A DNA stretch of 64,000 nucleotides, taken from NCBI RefSeq assembly GCF_038562415.1, contig NZ_JBCFBA010000013.1:62001-126000 (forward strand). The letters run 5' to 3'. This stretch comes from Solidesulfovibrio sp. GTDB lineage: Bacteria > Desulfobacterota > Desulfovibrionia > Desulfovibrionales > Desulfovibrionaceae. The notes below the pieces were generated by a model. The model saw only the letters and a list, made by a program, of their open reading frames with translations. It did no database searches and had not been told where the DNA came from. Position 1 is the first letter of the stretch; each line of letters starts with the position of its first letter. The translations under genes were made by a program, and so were the position numbers. Below, in pieces: positions 8,828 to 64,000 of this stretch.

Positions 8828-10504
8828 ATGCGCAGCTCGCAATTCAAATCCGGTCTGGAAAAAGCCCCCCACCGGTCCCTGCTCTACGCCCTGGGCCTGA
8901 CCCGGGAGGAAATGGAACGGCCGCTTATCGGCGTGGTCAATTCCGCCAACGAGGTCGTGCCCGGCCACATCCACTTGAACACCATCGCCGAGGCCGTCAA
9001 GGCCGGCATCCGCCTGGCCGGCGGCACGCCCATGACCTTTCCCGTCATCGGCGTGTGCGACGGGCTGGCCATGAACCACGCCGGCATGCACTACTCGCTG
9101 GTCAGCCGCGAGATCATCGCCGATTCCATCGAGATCATGGCCATGGCCCATCCCTTCGACGCCCTGGTGTGCATCCCCAACTGCGACAAGGTCGTGCCGG
9201 GCATGCTCATGGCCATGCTGCGGCTCAACATCCCCGCGGTCATCGTCAGCGGCGGCCCGATGCTCGCCGGCACCACCGGCGAAGGCTCGTGCGACCTGAT
9301 CGACGTGTTCGAGGCCGTGGGCAAGTTCAAGCGCGGCGGCATCGACCAGGACCAGCTCGACGAGCTCGAGCAGAACGCCTGTCCGGGCTGCGGCTCCTGT
9401 TCGGGCATGTTCACGGCCAATTCCATGAACTGCCTGTCGGAATCCGTGGGCCTGGGCCTGCCCGGCAACGGCACCATTCCCGCCGTCACGGCCAAGCGCG
9501 TGCGCCTGGCCAAGGCGGCCGGCATGCGCGTCATGGACCTGCTGGCCAAAAATATCCGCCCCCGGGACATCGTCACGGAAAAGAGCCTGGAAAACGCCGT
9601 GACCATGGACATGGCCCTGGGCTGCTCCACCAACACCGTGCTGCACCTGCCGGCTGTTTTCGCCGAGGCCGGCCTGCCGCTCACCCTGGACATCTTCGAT
9701 ACAATGTCCCGCAAGACGCCCAACCTCTGCAAGCTCTCCCCGGCCGGCCACCATTACCTCGACGACCTGGAGCGCGCCGGCGGCATCCCGGCCGTCATGA
9801 GCGTGCTGGCCGAAAAAGGCCTGCTCCACCTCGACGTCCTGACCGCCACGGGCAAGACGCTGGGCGAGAACCTGCGCGACCTCAAGGCCCGGGTCAAAAA
9901 CTTCGACGTCATCCGGGCCAGGGAGCCGTATGCCCAGGAAGGCGGCATCGCCATCCTGCGCGGCAGTCTGGCCCCGGATGGGGCCGTGGTCAAGCAGTCG
10001 GCCGTGGCCCCGTCGATGATGCGCCACACCGGCCCGGCCCGGGTCTTCGACGACGAGGAAGCGGCCAATGTGGCCATCCTCGGCGGGGAGATCAAGCCCG
10101 GCGACGTGGTGGTCATCCGCTACGAAGGCCCCCAGGGCGGGCCGGGCATGCGCGAGATGCTCTCCCCCACCTCCAACATCATGGGCATGGGCCTGGGCGA
10201 GACCGTGGCGCTTATTACCGACGGCCGTTTCAGCGGCGGCACGCGCGGCGCGGCCATCGGCCACGTCTCGCCCGAGGCGGCCGATGGAGGCCCCATCGGC
10301 CTGCTTCGCGACGGCGACGTCATCGACATCGACATCCCGGGACGCAGGCTGGAGATGCGCGTCGAGGCCGCCGAGTTGGAGCGGCGGCGCCAAGGCCATG
10401 TGATGCCGAAAAAGGACATCCCCTCCCCCCTGCTGCGCCGCTATGCCGCCCTGGTCAAATCCGCCGCCCAGGGCGCGGTCTACAAGGACCCGGCCGCACG
10501 GTAG
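8828..10504 (+). CDS. ilvD: Dihydroxy-acid dehydratase
   Basis: IlvD dehydrates 2,3-dihydroxy-isovalerate and 2,3-dihydroxy-3-methylvalerate to the 2-oxo acids, in valine, isoleucine and leucine synthesis. At 558 residues it has the usual length. Iron-sulfur ligands are visible in [11 protein letters not shown] and [18 protein letters not shown], and the C-terminal half has the conserved RFSGGTRG and [10 protein letters not shown] blocks. The ATG at 8828 follows AAGGAAA. It stands alone, with its own terminator. Confidence 0.97.
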
Positions 10505-57754: not shown

Positions 57755-57767
57755 CGGTATTTTGATT

Positions 57768-59759
57768 ATGCAGTCTCTTGCCTTTACAGCATCAGAGGTC
57801 GCCGGGGCGATGAAAATTTCTCGCCAAGCGGTGGACAAAAGAGCACGGGCAGAGAAATGGCCCTCGCAGCTCAAGGGCAAGAATCGATATTATGCTCTCG
57901 ACGGTTTACCTAAAGAGATGCATCCGGCGCTCTGCATCATGTTCCCGGAACGTTTCCCCTCGACGGCTCCTCTTGAACAGGAGCCGACCACCGTCCCTGA
58001 CTACAACGCTGAAGCCATTTGGGAGCACTACCGCAGCAAGTCCGAAGCGGCCCGGCAGCGGGCGGCAGAGAAGCACAAGCTGTTGATCCAGGTCGAAACG
58101 CTGGTGGATGCCGGAATAAAGCGGTGCGCGGCTTTCGACACAGTAGGCAAAGTCAACGCCATCAGCCCCAAGGTCATTCAGAACTGGTACTACGGCAAGG
58201 GAGCCAAGCGCGGCGTGCGCGATTACCACAAGAAGGACTGGCTTGCCGTCCTGGTGGACGAATACACGAACGCCAAGCCGAGGCAGGAAGAAAACTGCCA
58301 CCCTATGGCCTGGGACTGGTTCCTTGCCCACTATCTGGACCGCAGTCGGCCCACCCTGGCCGATTCCTACCGCCGCCTTCAGGAAACAGCGCGCGAACAT
58401 CACTGGGACATTCCCTGCGCCCGGACCCTTAAACGCCGTCTGGAAAGCGAAATTCCCCCAATCCAGATTGCCTACCTCCGCGAGGGGGAAAAGGCCATGC
58501 GCCGGTTCTACCCGGCCCAGGAGCGGGACAAGAACTGTTTCATGGCGGGGGAAGCCGTCAACGGCGACGGCCTCAAATTCGACAAGTTCTGGGTCGAGTT
58601 CGAGGACGGCGAAGTCATCAACACGGCCACGGCCTGGATATGGCAGGATGTCTATTCCGGCAAGCTCCTGGCCTGGAGGCTGGGCAAGACCGAGAACACC
58701 GACCTCTTCCGGCTCTCCCTCTATGATCTTACGGAAACCGTGGTCCCGTCCTTCGCCTGGATGGACAACACCCGGGTGGCCGCCAACAAGGCTATGACCG
58801 GCCGTAGTCCGCGCCGTCGTCGCTTCAAGAATCAGCCCTCGGACCCCGTGGGCATGATGCAGAAGCTCGGGATCGAACCGCGTTTCACCAACCCCGATCA
58901 GAAAGTGAGCAACCCCGGCGTGAAGCCGGTGGAACGCGCCTTCGGGATCGGGGGCATCCATGACGCTGTGCGCTTCCATCCCCGCTTCGCGGACCGTGGC
59001 ATCAGCAAGGCCACGGCCATTCCGGTGGGAGAACTCCGCGCAGTGCTGGAAGATGAAGTAGTGCGCTTCAACGCGCGGGCAGGCCGCAAAAGCGAGGTCT
59101 GCCAAGGACGCAGCTACGATGCGGTCTTTGCCGAGAGCTTTGTGAAGTATCCGGTCCGCAAGATCACGAATACCCAGCGCAGCTTGCTCTTGCTCATGCA
59201 AGAGGTTGTGCGCGTGCATCGTGATGATGGAGGAATCGCCCTCGACGCGGGCAAGGGGCCACACGGTCGCAATCGATACTGGAACGAGCGGCTTCCACAG
59301 TATGAAGGCCGCGAAGTACTTGCTTATTTCGATCCTGAAAATCTGCAAAATGACGTCCAGGTCTACACATTGGACGGGAATTTCATTTGCGAAGCCCAGT
59401 GGCTTCCCGGGACAGCGTTCAATGATGTCGAAGCTGCCCGCGAATGGAACAAGAACAAACGCCGCTATCTCAAGGCACAAAAGGAGACTGCCAAGGCGCA
59501 ACAACGCATGGACAAGCTGGAAATGGCCCGGCTTTATCCCTCGCCGACGGTTCCGGATCAACCCAAGGCCGCTGTCATAGCGCCGACGTTCGGCGGCGCG
59601 GACCTGCCGGGCACGGCCGGGCTGGAAAGTGTGGACGAGAAGCGGCTGGAAGAACTTCGGGCGGGCGCGGACAACTTGATTCGGCGAGTGGCCGAACAGC
59701 GCCGCCTGGATCAGGAATGGGAACTCCCGACAGGGCGGGCGGCCCTGCCGGGAGCATGA
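57768..59759 (+). CDS. Mu A-type transposase
   Basis: The 663-residue protein has the same length as Mu A. An N-terminal winged-helix enhancer-binding region (FTASEVAGAMKISRQAVDKRARAEKW split) is followed by DNA-binding helices and the RNase-H-like core. Catalytic residues are visible as NGDGLKFD (Asp 267), WMDNTRVAANK (Asp 333) and KPVERAFG (Glu 389), next to Mu positions 269, 336 and 392. The C-terminal region that contacts MuB follows. ATG at 57768 is chosen, TTG 57762 being the alternative. Confidence 0.95.
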   Translation: MQSLAFTASEVAGAMKISRQAVDKRARAEKWPSQLKGKNRYYALDGLPKEMHPALCIMFPERFPSTAPLEQEPTTVPDYNAEAIWEHYRSKSEAARQRAAEKHKLLIQVETLVDAGIKRCAAFDTVGKVNAISPKVIQNWYYGKGAKRGVRDYHKKDWLAVLVDEYTNAKPRQEENCHPMAWDWFLAHYLDRSRPTLADSYRRLQETAREHHWDIPCARTLKRRLESEIPPIQIAYLREGEKAMRRFYPAQERDKNCFMAGEAVNGDGLKFDKFWVEFEDGEVINTATAWIWQDVYSGKLLAWRLGKTENTDLFRLSLYDLTETVVPSFAWMDNTRVAANKAMTGRSPRRRRFKNQPSDPVGMMQKLGIEPRFTNPDQKVSNPGVKPVERAFGIGGIHDAVRFHPRFADRGISKATAIPVGELRAVLEDEVVRFNARAGRKSEVCQGRSYDAVFAESFVKYPVRKITNTQRSLLLLMQEVVRVHRDDGGIALDAGKGPHGRNRYWNERLPQYEGREVLAYFDPENLQNDVQVYTLDGNFICEAQWLPGTAFNDVEAAREWNKNKRRYLKAQKETAKAQQRMDKLEMARLYPSPTVPDQPKAAVIAPTFGGADLPGTAGLESVDEKRLEELRAGADNLIRRVAEQRRLDQEWELPTGRAALPGA

Positions 59760-59797: not shown

Positions 59798-60757
59798 ATG
59801 GAATTGCGTGCTGTCAATGCCGATTCGACAATGCCTTTGACCGGGGACGTGCGGGAACTGGTGCGCGCCGAAATGGAGCGCGGCGGGATGAGTCAAGCCC
59901 AGGTGGCGCGGGAGGCCGGGATCAATTCCGCCCGGTTGAGCCAATGGCTTGCCGACAAATACCAGGGCGACAACGCGACGGTGGACGCGGCCATGCGCAC
60001 ATGGCTCAAGGCACGGTCCGAGCGGGCTTCCGGTGATGCTCGTCTTCCGGGGGCTCCGGGTTGGATACCGACCGCCACGGCCAAGCGTGTTCAGGCGGCG
60101 CTGTTCTATGCGCAGATGGCCGGCGACATTGCCGTCACCTACGGCGGCGCGGGCGTGGGGAAGACTTGCACCGCCATGCAGTATCAGCGGGAAAATCCCA
60201 ACGTCTGGATTGCCACCATGACGCCCGCCACATCCAGCTTGGCCACCTGCCTGGAGCGCATCGCCCTAAGCGTGGGCATCCGGGAGGTGCCCCAAGGGGC
60301 GCTTCGCATCGAATCAGCCATCACCAGTCGCATCCAGGGAACCGGAGGCCTCCTCATTGTGGATGAGGCCCAGCACTTGAGCAAAGCCGCTCTTGAGGGG
60401 GTGCGCAGCATTCATGACCTGACCCAGGTAGGTCTGGCGCTCCTGGGGAATGAGAGCGTCTACGCCCAGCTTACGGGCGGATCGCGTCAGGCCCACTTTG
60501 CCCAACTCTTCAGCCGGATCGGCCGCCGGCTTCGGCTGAATACCCCGGACAAAGAGGACGTCGAGGCTTTGCTTGATGCCTGGAGCGTGCCCGGCGACGC
60601 CAGGGAAAATTGCCGGCAAGTTGCCCGGCAAAATGGCGCATTGCGAGGCCTGACCAAGATGCTGCGTGTCGCTTCGATGATGGCCGCAGGGGAAGGCCAT
60701 GCGCTGTCGAACGAGCATGTCAGGGCCGCTTGGTGTGATCTTGGGGGCAAGGCGTAA
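59798..60757 (+). CDS. Mu B-type target-capture ATPase
   Basis: MuB is an AAA+ ATPase that binds target DNA and delivers it to the transposase. The 319-residue protein has an N-terminal HTH (MSQAQVAREAGINSARLSQWLADK, split), Walker A GGAGVGKT (about residues 115-122), Walker B LLIVDEAQHLS and an arginine-bearing FSRIGRRLRL. Mu B has 312 residues. GAAGGA precedes the ATG at 59798. Confidence 0.94.
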   Translation: MELRAVNADSTMPLTGDVRELVRAEMERGGMSQAQVAREAGINSARLSQWLADKYQGDNATVDAAMRTWLKARSERASGDARLPGAPGWIPTATAKRVQAALFYAQMAGDIAVTYGGAGVGKTCTAMQYQRENPNVWIATMTPATSSLATCLERIALSVGIREVPQGALRIESAITSRIQGTGGLLIVDEAQHLSKAALEGVRSIHDLTQVGLALLGNESVYAQLTGGSRQAHFAQLFSRIGRRLRLNTPDKEDVEALLDAWSVPGDARENCRQVARQNGALRGLTKMLRVASMMAAGEGHALSNEHVRAAWCDLGGKA

Positions 60758-61059: not shown

Positions 61060-61221
61060 CAGGCAGGGAGCAGGTCAAACCGCTGCACCAAGACACGCGA
61101 GAACCCATTTACTGGTAGTTTACTGGGCATTTTCCGGGGCAAGGCCAGGGCCGAGGTCATGGCGAGGCCAAAAAGCGATTCCAGGGGTCTTCTCGCACGA
61201 ATCCAAAGGAGGTTGGGTCAA

Positions 61222-61803
61222 ATGGCTAAAATACTTGAAATGCCGAGTGCGCTTGCCGACCTCAAGGCGAGACGCGAGGAACGCCGCCAAAAACTGATGG
61301 GGCCGGGCAAAAAGGCCACTGACAGCCGGAGCGAGAGCATCCGCAAGGGCCTGCTGGCCAAGGTCCACATAGCCAAGGCCCAGCTTGGCTTGGACGATGC
61401 CGACTGGCGGGCGATCCTGGAAGAGCGCTTCGGGGTGAACTCCTCGGCCCTCCTGTCCCTCGGCCAGTTGGAAACCCTGGTCAGCCACCTTGAAAAATGC
61501 GGCTGGAAGCCCACCCGCGCCCGCAAGCCTTTCGACCGCCACGGCAAACCCCACGTCGCCACCCATGACGATACCGGCATGGGCCGCGAGGGGCAGATGC
61601 GCAAGATCGAGGCCTTGCTTGCCGAGCTTGGCCGGGCCGAAGGGCGGTATATGCCCTGGGACTACGCCGCCGCGATCCTCAAGCACCAGACCGGCCTGAC
61701 CCGGCTTGAATATGCCGAGCCGATCCAGCTCAAGGGGGTCATCGCGGCGCTTTCCAAAAACATTGCCCGCAAGAGGAAGCGCGCCGATGCTGCAAACGCC
61801 TGA
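61222..61803 (+). CDS. GemA-like protein (Mu gp16, DUF1018)
   Basis: The 193-residue protein carries IRKGLLAKVHIAKAQLGLDDADWRAILEERFGVNSSALLSLGQLETLVSHLE (split), the core of the GemA/DUF1018 family. In Mu this protein modulates host gene expression and DNA topology. ATG 61222 is chosen because AAAGGAGG is right upstream. ATG 61159 would add 21 residues. The gene overlaps the Mor-like gene by 17 bp. Confidence 0.88.
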   Translation: MAKILEMPSALADLKARREERRQKLMGPGKKATDSRSESIRKGLLAKVHIAKAQLGLDDADWRAILEERFGVNSSALLSLGQLETLVSHLEKCGWKPTRARKPFDRHGKPHVATHDDTGMGREGQMRKIEALLAELGRAEGRYMPWDYAAAILKHQTGLTRLEYAEPIQLKGVIAALSKNIARKRKRADAANA

Positions 61804-62377
61804 AACGGATGACTCCGGCGGTCTTTTTCAAGAACTCGTCATGCAGATCGGGCTTCGAAATGCCTGCCGCCTTTGCGCCAGCAAGGGCGGCAGGTCTGTT
61901 TATCTTCCGATCCCTGAAAACCTGTCGCCTGACCACTGGCTGGTTGAACTCCTGGGCACGGAAGATGCGGCAAAAGTGGCCGGGTACATGGGCGGGGCCA
62001 AGATACTCCTGCCGCTTGGCCCGTATGGGGGCCAACGGGGCCAGACGCGTCTGGGCATCAAAATGGCCCTGGCCAATGGCCATACCGTTCAACAGATCGC
62101 CGCCATGTTCGGCGTGACCACCCGAACGGTCCGCCGACACAAAAATGGCCCGGCAGAACATGCCCAGGCCAAAACCGATGAAAGCAAGGAGCTTATCGGG
62201 GCGTTACAGAAACAGGCCCGGCAGATCGAGGCCACGCCCATTGAGTTGATCGAGGTCATGAGACGGCTTTTACGGCGCGTGCCCAAAGAGACCCTTGAAA
62301 GGGCCTTGCAGCGGATTCGCCAGGACGCCGCCGGACAATCGGAAACGTCAGACGGGCCGGCGAGGCCCCAGAAGTAG
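61787..62377 (+). CDS. Mor-like middle/late-gene activator
   Basis: The 196-residue protein has an N-terminal domain (SVYLPIPENL) and an HTH QIAAMFGVTTRTVRRH, as in the Mor/C transcription activators. A charged C-terminal helical region of about 80 residues extends beyond the usual 129-residue Mor size. In Mu, Mor switches from early to middle transcription. AGAGGAAG precedes the ATG at 61787. Confidence 0.75.
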   Translation: MLQTPETDDSGGLFQELVMQIGLRNACRLCASKGGRSVYLPIPENLSPDHWLVELLGTEDAAKVAGYMGGAKILLPLGPYGGQRGQTRLGIKMALANGHTVQQIAAMFGVTTRTVRRHKNGPAEHAQAKTDESKELIGALQKQARQIEATPIELIEVMRRLLRRVPKETLERALQRIRQDAAGQSETSDGPARPQK

Positions 62378-62385
62378 GAGAAATC

Positions 62386-63057
62386 ATGGAGTTGGCACAA
62401 GGAACCCCCCTTGAGATGACGCCGCCCCCGGCCGGAAGCGCGGGACCGCCTGTGTGGGTTCACATTCTGCCCGTGGGGCGATTTCAATGCAGGGACGGGC
62501 GTGGGCCGTTCGTGATGAACGATCCCCAGGCCGTCATCAACAACACCGTGGCGTACCACGGGACAGCGGACATCCCCGTGGACTATGACCACCAGCTTCT
62601 TTGGACCAGGAACAACGGCCAGCCGGCCCCGGCCGCTGGCTGGATCAAGGAGCTTGCCGCCAAACCGGACGGCATCTGGGGGCGCGCGGAGTGGACCCAA
62701 GTAGCGGCCGCCCGCATTGTGGCCAAGGAATACCGCTACCTGTCTCCCGTCTTCCTCTATGACGCGGCCGGCACTGTCATGAAGATCGAGTGCGTGGCCC
62801 TGGTAAACAATCCGGCCCTGGAGTTGACGGCCATCGCATCGGCTGGCTTCGGCACGTTCGGACCGCCGACCTTGTCGGCTGAGGAAAGGGCCGTCTGTTC
62901 GCAGTTGGGCCTATCCGAGGCCGAGTTTTACCGGGCGAACCAGCGCCGTCAGCATGAAAAAGCGGAATGTGCGCGCCAAGTCGTCGAGGATCATACGATA
63001 TGCTCCATGCTTGGCATTTCCCTGGCTGACTATCTCCATGCCAAGCAACAAAGATAA
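62386..63057 (+). CDS. Mu I-type phage protease, short form
   Basis: The 223-residue protein begins like Mu I (gp32) proteases: WVHILPVGRFQCRDGRGPF, then VDYDHQLLWTRNNGQPAPAAGWIKEL and YRYLSPVFLYDAAG. The C-terminal LSAEERAVCSQLGLSEAEFYRANQ and a second similar unit follow. Mu-type proteins are about 350 residues, so the middle scaffold region is shorter or missing. AGGAGAAATC precedes the ATG at 62386. Confidence 0.78.
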   Translation: MELAQGTPLEMTPPPAGSAGPPVWVHILPVGRFQCRDGRGPFVMNDPQAVINNTVAYHGTADIPVDYDHQLLWTRNNGQPAPAAGWIKELAAKPDGIWGRAEWTQVAAARIVAKEYRYLSPVFLYDAAGTVMKIECVALVNNPALELTAIASAGFGTFGPPTLSAEERAVCSQLGLSEAEFYRANQRRQHEKAECARQVVEDHTICSMLGISLADYLHAKQQR

Positions 63058-63091: not shown

Positions 63092-63763
63092 ATGGACAAC
63101 ATGAATAGACCGCTGGAGAGTTTTACCCAGGAAACGCTTCAAAAAGTCCTAAAGTTGGAAAGCAACATCCGTTCCAACCTCGAAGAGGTTGAGAGGAAAA
63201 TCGAAACGACCCAGGAACGCATCTTGGCGACAACGACCGAGATCACCAAGATTGAAGGCTTACACCGTGACATCGAACTGACCAGACGCGAACGCCAGAA
63301 AATGCTGGCTGCTGGCGTAGACCACCAGGAGATCACCGCACGCATCAAGGGCTTGCAAGAGGAGCTACAGGCCGGACAGCCCGACCTTGAACTCCTTCAG
63401 GACGAAAGAGCCGGCCTGGAACAGGCCCTCGAAAAGTTCCAAAAGGACAGGCTACAAGTCCTTCGGGAGCTTGAAGAGATGGACCTGAAGGTCAAGCTCG
63501 TCCGTCACATGGTCGTCGTCAACGAGTACAACGAGCAGGCCGCCAAGTTCTCGGAGGTCGTTGCAAGATACTGGGAAACCCGGGACGTCTTGCCGAAGAA
63601 ATTTAACGACCTTGCCTGGGGCAAGGGGATTCCTTCCGCCGCCCACGGCATCCACAACACGGCGCTCTGGCGCATCCCGATCCTTCGCCAGGAGTGGGTC
63701 AAGAACTCCGGGCAGCAGGTCTTCCATTTCACGAAATGGAAGGACCTGCCCGAAACCTATTAA
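63092..63763 (+). CDS. Coiled-coil prophage protein
   Basis: The 223-residue protein is almost wholly coiled coil from residue 15 to about 150 (heptad-like LKLESNIRSNLEEVERKIET, then QEELQAGQPDLELLQDERAG). A mixed C-terminal domain follows (VARYWETRDVLPKKFNDLAWG and KNSGQQVFHFTKWKDLPE). AAAAGGA precedes the ATG at 63092. In this place Mu carries head genes, so it may be a scaffold or an added gene. It is followed directly by the RNA-like repeats. Confidence 0.7.
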   Translation: MDNMNRPLESFTQETLQKVLKLESNIRSNLEEVERKIETTQERILATTTEITKIEGLHRDIELTRRERQKMLAAGVDHQEITARIKGLQEELQAGQPDLELLQDERAGLEQALEKFQKDRLQVLRELEEMDLKVKLVRHMVVVNEYNEQAAKFSEVVARYWETRDVLPKKFNDLAWGKGIPSAAHGIHNTALWRIPILRQEWVKNSGQQVFHFTKWKDLPETY

Positions 63764-63802
63764 CCGTCTTGAGGGCGGCAGCAACCTACGTTATTATCCA
63801 AA

Positions 63803-63900
63803 CCATGCCCCCGAGAGTCCGGGAATGTCGCTGCCGGACGGGGCGGACCTGTAAAACCAGGGAGTCCCACCGTGGAGTTTGCGCACCACCGGGGGCATGG
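63803..63900. other. Foldable repeat element, copy 1 (possible non-coding RNA)
   Basis: CCATGCCCCC (63803-63812) pairs with GGGGGCATGG (63891-63900). Inside are three more stems: GTCCGG/CCGGAC (63818-63839), GGACCTG/CAGG with AGTCC (63845-63866), and GTGG/CCAC (63873-63889). The form is that of a four-way cloverleaf, but it has no tRNA consensus. The element could also encode a 52-residue Cys-rich peptide (63805-63963), though this is not favoured. Copy 2 begins 169 bp further on. Confidence 0.55.
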
Positions 63901-63971
63901 CTTTTCATGGTCAGTCGGGAAAATTGCCCGAGCTTGAGTGGGTGTCTTGAAGTCGGTATGTAAGCAGGCGG

Positions 63972-64000
63972 TCATGCCTCCGAGAGGCCGGGAATGACGC
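63972..64000. repeat. Foldable repeat element, copy 2 (cut by the window end)
   Basis: The 28 bases from 63973 match the 28 bases from 63804 at 24 positions or more (CATGCC-CCGAGAG-CCGGGAATG-CGC). The outer-stem differences (C to T) would be compatible with a compensating change downstream. The rest lies beyond the window. Confidence 0.7.

Follow-up and report, generated by a model that had tools for sequence, protein, structure and literature searches.

Cloverleaf RNAs beside the MuF head gene of Mu-like phages: candidate tRNA-mimic antidotes to a predicted RNase toxin domain

Introduction

In type III toxin–antitoxin systems (ToxIN and relatives) a structured RNA, sometimes repeated, counters an endoribonuclease, and the toxin gene is immediately preceded by the RNA repeats, within a single operon. 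Polymorphic toxins of the MuF type are associated with proteins in the corresponding role: small ORFs, putative immunity genes, follow 89.4% of 191 MuF toxin genes, compared with 25.5% of 952 short MuF genes (Jamet et al. 2017, PMC5576092), and Bxa, a MuF polymorphic toxin, has two immunity proteins (PMC11699363). The MuF-C region of Mu gp30 has been assigned to the PBECR domains, which are RNase domains of the BECR fold; BECR active sites have a histidine in the first helix, and one possibility named for PBECR domains is that they spare host tRNA and rRNA (Iyer et al. 2017, PMC5512222). tRNases of the BECR fold are listed by Zhang et al. 2012 (PMC3482391).

The locus described here lies at the right end of the window (the whole stretch of 64,000 nucleotides that was analysed, G000:C13:62001-126000), an end that falls inside an array of structured RNAs; no description of such an RNA was found in the open-licence literature of PubMed Central. 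We consider it fairly probable that this is a tRNA-mimic immunity RNA, inhibiting a head-delivered and perhaps tRNA-directed RNase, and that the array in the window represents orphan immunity in a minimal Mu-like element.

Results

The features of the right-hand part of the window are as follows (window coordinates, strand, description).

57762..59759, +, MuA-like transposase gene (profile match)
59798..60757, +, MuB-like transposition protein gene (profile match)
61159..61803, +, GemA-like gene (profile match)
61706..62377, +, ORF with a Mor-like (late activator) profile match
62386..63057, +, shortened Mu gene I (head protease); the best stretch is positions 1-137 of a 330-position profile
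63092..63763, +, coiled-coil protein gene adjoining the array, and unlikely to be its partner
63769..63797, +, sigma-70-like promoter of copy 1 (TTGAGG, 17 bp, TATTAT); stricter scan, 1 found, 0.2 expected in shuffles
63803..63903, +, RNA gene, copy 1 (cloverleaf, central arm type V1); match to the model R1 at 63799-63904, E 2.5e-25 (R1 was built with copy 1)
63934..63962, +, sigma-70-like promoter of copy 2 (TTGAGT, 17 bp, TATGTA); from the pattern search, absent from the stricter scan
63972..64000, +, RNA copy 2, start only, cut by the window end; R1 partial match 63968-64000

MuA-, MuB-, GemA- and Mor-like genes in this order identify a Mu-like transposable element, and the RNA stands at the end of this minimal element, after the shortened gene I and the coiled-coil gene, and shares the strand of its neighbours. 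The original prediction, that a Mu-like element carries a structured RNA in several copies, is borne out. The first 28 bases of copy 1 do recur at 63973, 169 bp further on, with 89% identity, and extension to the right, proposed as a way of counting the repeats, completed copy 2 (L007:1972-2075, equivalent to window positions 63972-64075) and added copy 3 (L007:2295-2398, equivalent to 64295-64398). A second triple array is present on contig C17 (near L008:9665-9763, 9851-9952 and 10020-10117), making six full copies in G000 by DNA search, three on each of the two contigs. R1 gave seven matches in this genome, the seventh being a decayed piece on contig C28. Decayed copies, with pieces of array spacer alongside, were seen at L029:8228-8310 (G000, contig C28) and at L030:9899-10010 (G002).

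Other parts of the prediction fared less well. The hairpin noted in the spacer (63915-63931) is present in the sequence; it was not seen in the matching C17 spacer, and is taken as incidental. A search for a reverse transcriptase or nuclease gene downstream had been suggested; none was seen after the array, where the next ORFs have the appearance of host genes. The coiled-coil gene, pointed out as a neighbour of the array, does not look like the partner: its homologues in G003 and G010 lack an R1 match. Repeats resembling TTTACTGG are found before gemA (window 61107-61128) and, in G012 and G047 (L016, L017), before the RNA promoter; they are perhaps sites of a regulator.

Every full copy forms a four-way junction, comprising a long outer stem, a D-like arm, a central arm and a T-like arm. 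This confirms the foldable element of outer stem and three inner arms that had been proposed: the stretch 63795-63910 has a minimum free energy (MFE) of -55.1 kcal/mol (z -3.0, 1/200 shuffles as stable), and its reverse strand folds equally well (z -3.3). The central arm is of two types, V1 (a stem with a variable tip) and V2 (a stem with a CCUGGNA loop), arranged V1, V2, V2 on C13 and V1, V2, V1 on C17, and the type differs even between close relatives, for example L031 and L034.

Covariation of the outer stem, which the prediction itself had named as decisive, was found across homologues. The six G000 copies alone show both-side changes in 10/33 pairs. For 16 sequences from six genome loci and six IMG/VR contigs, in an alignment fitted to the model, 95.3% of cells were paired (shuffled mean 81.6), both-side changes were seen in 19/33 pairs (0/500 shuffles as high), and the covariation score was 0.431, compared with 0.051-0.096 with slid partners; the number of further pair types was no better than shuffled (297/500). 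An independent MAFFT/RNAalifold analysis of 15 sequences returned the same fold, with both-side changes in 14/29 pairs. On comparative sequence evidence the element is a covarying cloverleaf RNA gene. No Rfam 15 family lay over it at gathering score, nor at E up to 10, 1 or 0.5, and ARAGORN called a tRNA in 0/8 loci with the window-type RNA (L007 and L008 included).

All seven copies considered for promoters (six from G000, one from G009) are preceded by TTG[AC]NN-17-TANNNN ending 6-11 nt before the stem, against 0.04 of 7 expected in shuffles, for a pattern chosen after inspection. The stricter scan revealed no terminator-like site behind the window copies (1.3 expected). Each copy is read as a putative transcription unit of its own.

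R1 matches were obtained in 5/288 genomes of the family. In G012, in G047 (two prophages) and in eight IMG/VR contigs, a Mu-like head operon has the RNA in the gap separating gene F from gene I; the suggested connection with the head-gene region holds in these relatives, while the G000 copies stand elsewhere. Single copies prevail among the relatives examined, arrays being the less common form. A pattern scan of viral contigs gave nine stretches, eight of them confirmed by R1 (L039 was not), and a pattern scan of genome contigs gave 62, none convincing with R1 (best L068, E 0.0095). The two prophages of G047 (L027 and L028, on C1 near 1.33 Mb and 3.42 Mb) are about 2.1 Mb apart and identical over 801 bases around the RNA. 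The Mu-like prophage of G012 also carries a type II hammerhead ribozyme (L026:19672-19736, minus strand; Rfam RF02276, 65.4 bits), and an IMG/VR contig has a match to Rfam sRNA-Xcc1 upstream of gene F (L308:629-714, minus strand; 73.5 bits).

In 11/11 loci with the window-type RNA and full head genes, the RNA is on the strand opposite the head genes, with its 3′ end at the F stop. Such an arrangement would suit an antisense or other regulatory RNA acting in cis on gene F or on the late head operon. We judge this very unlikely, given that the G000 copies form triplets at a distance from any gene F and read in the same direction as the genes around them, and that selection has preserved the fold through changes of the stem sequence. 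The G000 RNA shows, moreover, that the RNA is not tied to gene F, which favours action in trans.

What an immunity RNA would act upon is suggested by gene F itself. In RNA-bearing phages F combines a Phage_Mu_F domain with a C-terminal part related to Pfam MuF_C, and a portal homologue stands beside it in the 11 window-type loci and in annotated phages. PF04233 (the MuF N-terminal domain) was present in 5/5 proteins scanned, and PF18819 (MuF_C) matched at the cut-off in L111 (27.6 bits), below it in L110 and L027, and not at all in L026 and L129. Our own domain profile recognises all five, of which four contributed to it and L129 did not. The model R2 had its best match at the 3′ end of the domain, on the opposite strand, in 8/19 further loci, none of which was used to build it (E 1.3e-5 to 0.089); among 33 IMG/VR relatives of F it finds the RNA in nine, those with the closest C-termini, and it misses L111, L129 and L130, where the domain is present and the RNA is visible by eye or by scan.

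A search with the domain alone matched 18/288 family genomes, with no match in G000, G002 or G009, all carriers of orphan RNAs, and a six-frame search of the array loci found no piece of the toxin domain. A partner gene had been placed outside the window; it is gene F of other phages, through its MuF_C-type domain, that appears to supply the partner.

The domain alignment has the motif HxxRxxK or HAxxxKH in an early helix, and an AlphaFold2 model from an alignment of 28 domains (pLDDT 89.5, pTM 0.84) places a histidine-bearing helix before the strands. Foldseek with the predicted domain returned nothing at E <= 0.001. Structural re-alignment put RelE first (4fxe, Z 4.4, rmsd 3.7, 73 aligned), followed by the CDI toxins 6cp9 (Z 4.2) and 7m5f (3.1), the unrelated DcpS 6gbs (3.0) and the CDI toxin 6vek (2.9), values so low, with an unrelated chain among the top five, that they prove nothing alone. 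This ranking of RelE and CDI toxins agrees with the PBECR assignment of MuF-C (PMC5512222), and the partner domain is predicted to be an RNase toxin. ToxN-like folds were not listed in the re-alignment, to which no evidential weight is attached.

A small immunity ORF directly downstream of F is not the rule; in most motif-intact loci that place is taken by the RNA. One exception, L299 and L149 (which share the same C-terminus), keeps the motif and has no RNA, its slot being filled by an ORF on the opposite strand that may be a protein replacement for the RNA.

L299:3940-4737 (same protein in L149), -, 265-aa ORF in the RNA slot, on the strand that the RNA would use

By eye, the same slot in further domain-bearing loci holds cloverleaf RNAs that grade into plainly tRNA-like ones, with T-arms such as GCGGGUUCAAUUCCCGC or GUUGGUUCGAAUCCAAC, D-arms, and acceptor stems of 7-12 bp; no RNA was seen in the slot of L141 or L149. 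In most of them the central arm consists of a long stem closed by a small loop, and a normal anticodon loop is absent; no CCA end was noticed by eye in the sequences of the tRNA-like RNAs. ARAGORN called a tRNA in 1/41 tRNA-like loci of one set and 2/20 of another, and weak tRNA-clan Rfam matches, below gathering score, were obtained in L165 and L147. The window-type and tRNA-like RNAs are joined by slot, architecture and partner, not by demonstrated sequence homology.

Among named phages, B3 (Pseudomonas) and Pmp9 and AFS-2018a (Pasteurella) have 123-124 nt separating F from the next head gene, and the RNA lies in this gap, where it is not annotated as RNA and, in B3, underlies the hypothetical ORF34. 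In Mu, D108, JBD67, JBD18 and CF177a, F and the next gene overlap, and no such RNA was seen. Searches by F protein yielded 27 loci for B3, 24 for Pmp9, 71 for AFS-2018a and 17 for L154. A Pasteurella-type RNA pattern was found in 66/71 AFS-type loci (L168, L221-L290), twice in four of them; of the pattern-negative loci, L226, L227, L265 and L271 hold variants by eye, and in L259 the contig ends within F. Two RNAs were also seen by eye in L260 and in L204/L205, so tandem copies are not unique to the window. In 27 of these RNAs all eight acceptor pairs showed both-side changes, and the predicted D and T pairs were invariant, a combination that suggests that the protein reads the tRNA elbow. Promoter-bearing, RNA-like candidates were also seen 3′ of MuF genes whose C-terminus the toxin profile does not recognise (L113, L118, L119, L306 and L307); perhaps these are further toxin types with such RNAs.

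Presence of the RNA followed the state of the active-site motif. Loci were classed by the motif histidine after removal of those with identical 3′ regions, and four automatic signals of an RNA were scored: a promoter, an acceptor-plus-T-arm scan exceeding 99% of shuffles (a loose version, with its 99% level at 13.2 in 570 shuffles), the Pasteurella-type pattern, and a T-arm motif. Some signal was present in 101/105 motif-intact loci against 1/16 motif-lost loci, and two signals or the Pasteurella-type pattern in 69/105 against 0/16, counts that are not independent trials, since the loci share ancestry. A promoter was among the signals in 80/105 motif-intact and 0/16 motif-lost loci. Where the domain was unrecognised, 10/30 loci had any signal (mostly a promoter) and 1/30 had two signals or the Pasteurella-type pattern.

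Individual departures were few. Of the four motif-intact loci with no signal, L138 has an R2 match (E 0.04) and an RNA by eye, L302 has a shifted F frame with the RNA further on, L141 is a short piece, and L149 is a real exception; the sole motif-lost locus with a signal, L194, was scored by the scan alone. Seventeen loci were first classed as lost, among them L210, whose motif reads HKHHK and is misaligned, and which is counted as intact in the 105/16 tally. In 15 of these 17 the next gene is at most 60 nt from F (L185 gave no value), and a crude ORF caller placed the next ORF within 60 nt in 11/104 loci then classed intact. The MFE z-score proved a weak detector of the RNA, with z <= -2 in 38/104 then-intact loci (coding controls 7 and 6 of 104), 0/17 then-lost loci, and 8/30 loci in which no domain was recognised (0 in both controls).

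A tree of 73 F proteins, 55 of its rows being RNA loci already judged positive, serves to count losses and is no survey, its rows having been chosen by hand; it also carries a long-branch warning. Loss of the motif required four changes on this tree, at least three of them forced by well supported branches, in Mu/D108, in the JBD67-type Pseudomonas clade, in a second Pseudomonas-type clade, and in L304, where the motif was lost through a short in-frame deletion. B3 and L176, inside the same group, keep both motif and RNA. The phylogeny indicates joint loss of RNA and motif in three lineages at the least and probably in four, one of them that of phage Mu.

These losses bear on two further explanations. 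The RNA could be a decoy tRNA, or another small RNA, directed against host defences such as anticodon nucleases and housed in a convenient slot after gene F; the RNAs are tRNA-like, and phage tRNAs are described as evading tRNA-targeting defences (PMC10264068, PMC11555353). A decoy would not be predicted to disappear jointly with its neighbour's active-site motif in several lineages, and we hold this explanation to be quite unlikely. An RNA cofactor that serves the folding, loading or retention of the RNase domain in the head, or that is packaged and delivered alongside this domain, would show the same linkage and co-loss. It is nonetheless an unlikely account, as the RNA has its own housekeeping-type promoter on the strand opposite the head genes, and as the toxin-less copies and arrays of G000, G002 and G009 are left unexplained.

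Discussion

Sequence supports the RNA fold, the promoter, the slot, the linkage, the co-loss, the tRNA-like form and the orphan copies on which the proposed antidote role is built. We infer toxicity of the domain, tRNA as its target, inhibition by mimicry, and protection against superinfection. On this proposal, the head-borne domain would enter the cell alongside the phage DNA and there attack tRNA or a tRNA-like substrate; the possibility that PBECR domains leave host tRNA and rRNA alone (PMC5512222) counts against this. The RNA, with its housekeeping-type promoter on the opposite strand, could be transcribed in the silent prophage, at a time when F is not expressed and the threat comes from incoming virions. 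It would mimic tRNA, with the elbow (D and T arms) kept and a normal anticodon loop mostly absent, and would in this way occupy the toxin while not being attacked by it. The orphan array, six copies in two minimal Mu-like elements, would probably shield its host cell, and also the element in which it resides, against phages that carry the toxin. We put forward more tentatively, as a possibility somewhat short of probable, a widespread and so far unrecognised class of RNA immunity, in which phages have made tRNA-like RNAs with no normal anticodon loop into dedicated antidotes to a capsid-delivered RNase, and in which arrays in minimal mobile elements are orphan immunity against phages bearing the toxin. 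Overall, the interpretation offered by the original prediction is partly supported.

If true, a delivered-toxin system has an RNA where its immunity protein would be, and the shape of that RNA, a tRNA lacking a normal anticodon loop, hints at the target of the toxin. The C-terminal domain of MuF head proteins (Mu gp30 and relatives) would gain a testable role, the unannotated gap in phages such as B3 would be explained, and the RNA would serve readers of genomes as a marker of live toxin domains.

The pair, as judged from its genes, would work like a toxin with its immunity or like a type III antitoxin, yet it departs from the usual arrangement of either. Type III toxin–antitoxin systems are alike in that a structured RNA, at times repeated, would counter an endoribonuclease; here, however, the RNA has its own promoter and lies beyond the 3′ end of the toxin gene, in the other orientation, which is not the type III arrangement, and the RNA is a tRNA-like cloverleaf set against a phage-head-delivered toxin. 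MuF polymorphic toxins, as far as the cited accounts describe them, share the MuF N-terminal domain after the portal gene, the C-terminal effector and an immunity slot beside the toxin gene, although here a structured RNA, encoded on the opposite strand, takes that slot in place of a small ORF. The PBECR/MuF-C domains are of the same kind as the partner domain, with a histidine in an early helix; a linked RNA is not mentioned in the part of that account drawn on here (PMC5512222), and in the present data Mu's own histidine motif is gone together with the RNA. Defence-evading phage tRNAs (PMC10264068, PMC11555353) are likewise phage-encoded RNAs of tRNA fold in a conflict over tRNA, but they have anticodons, whereas the opponent proposed here is the phage's own toxin.
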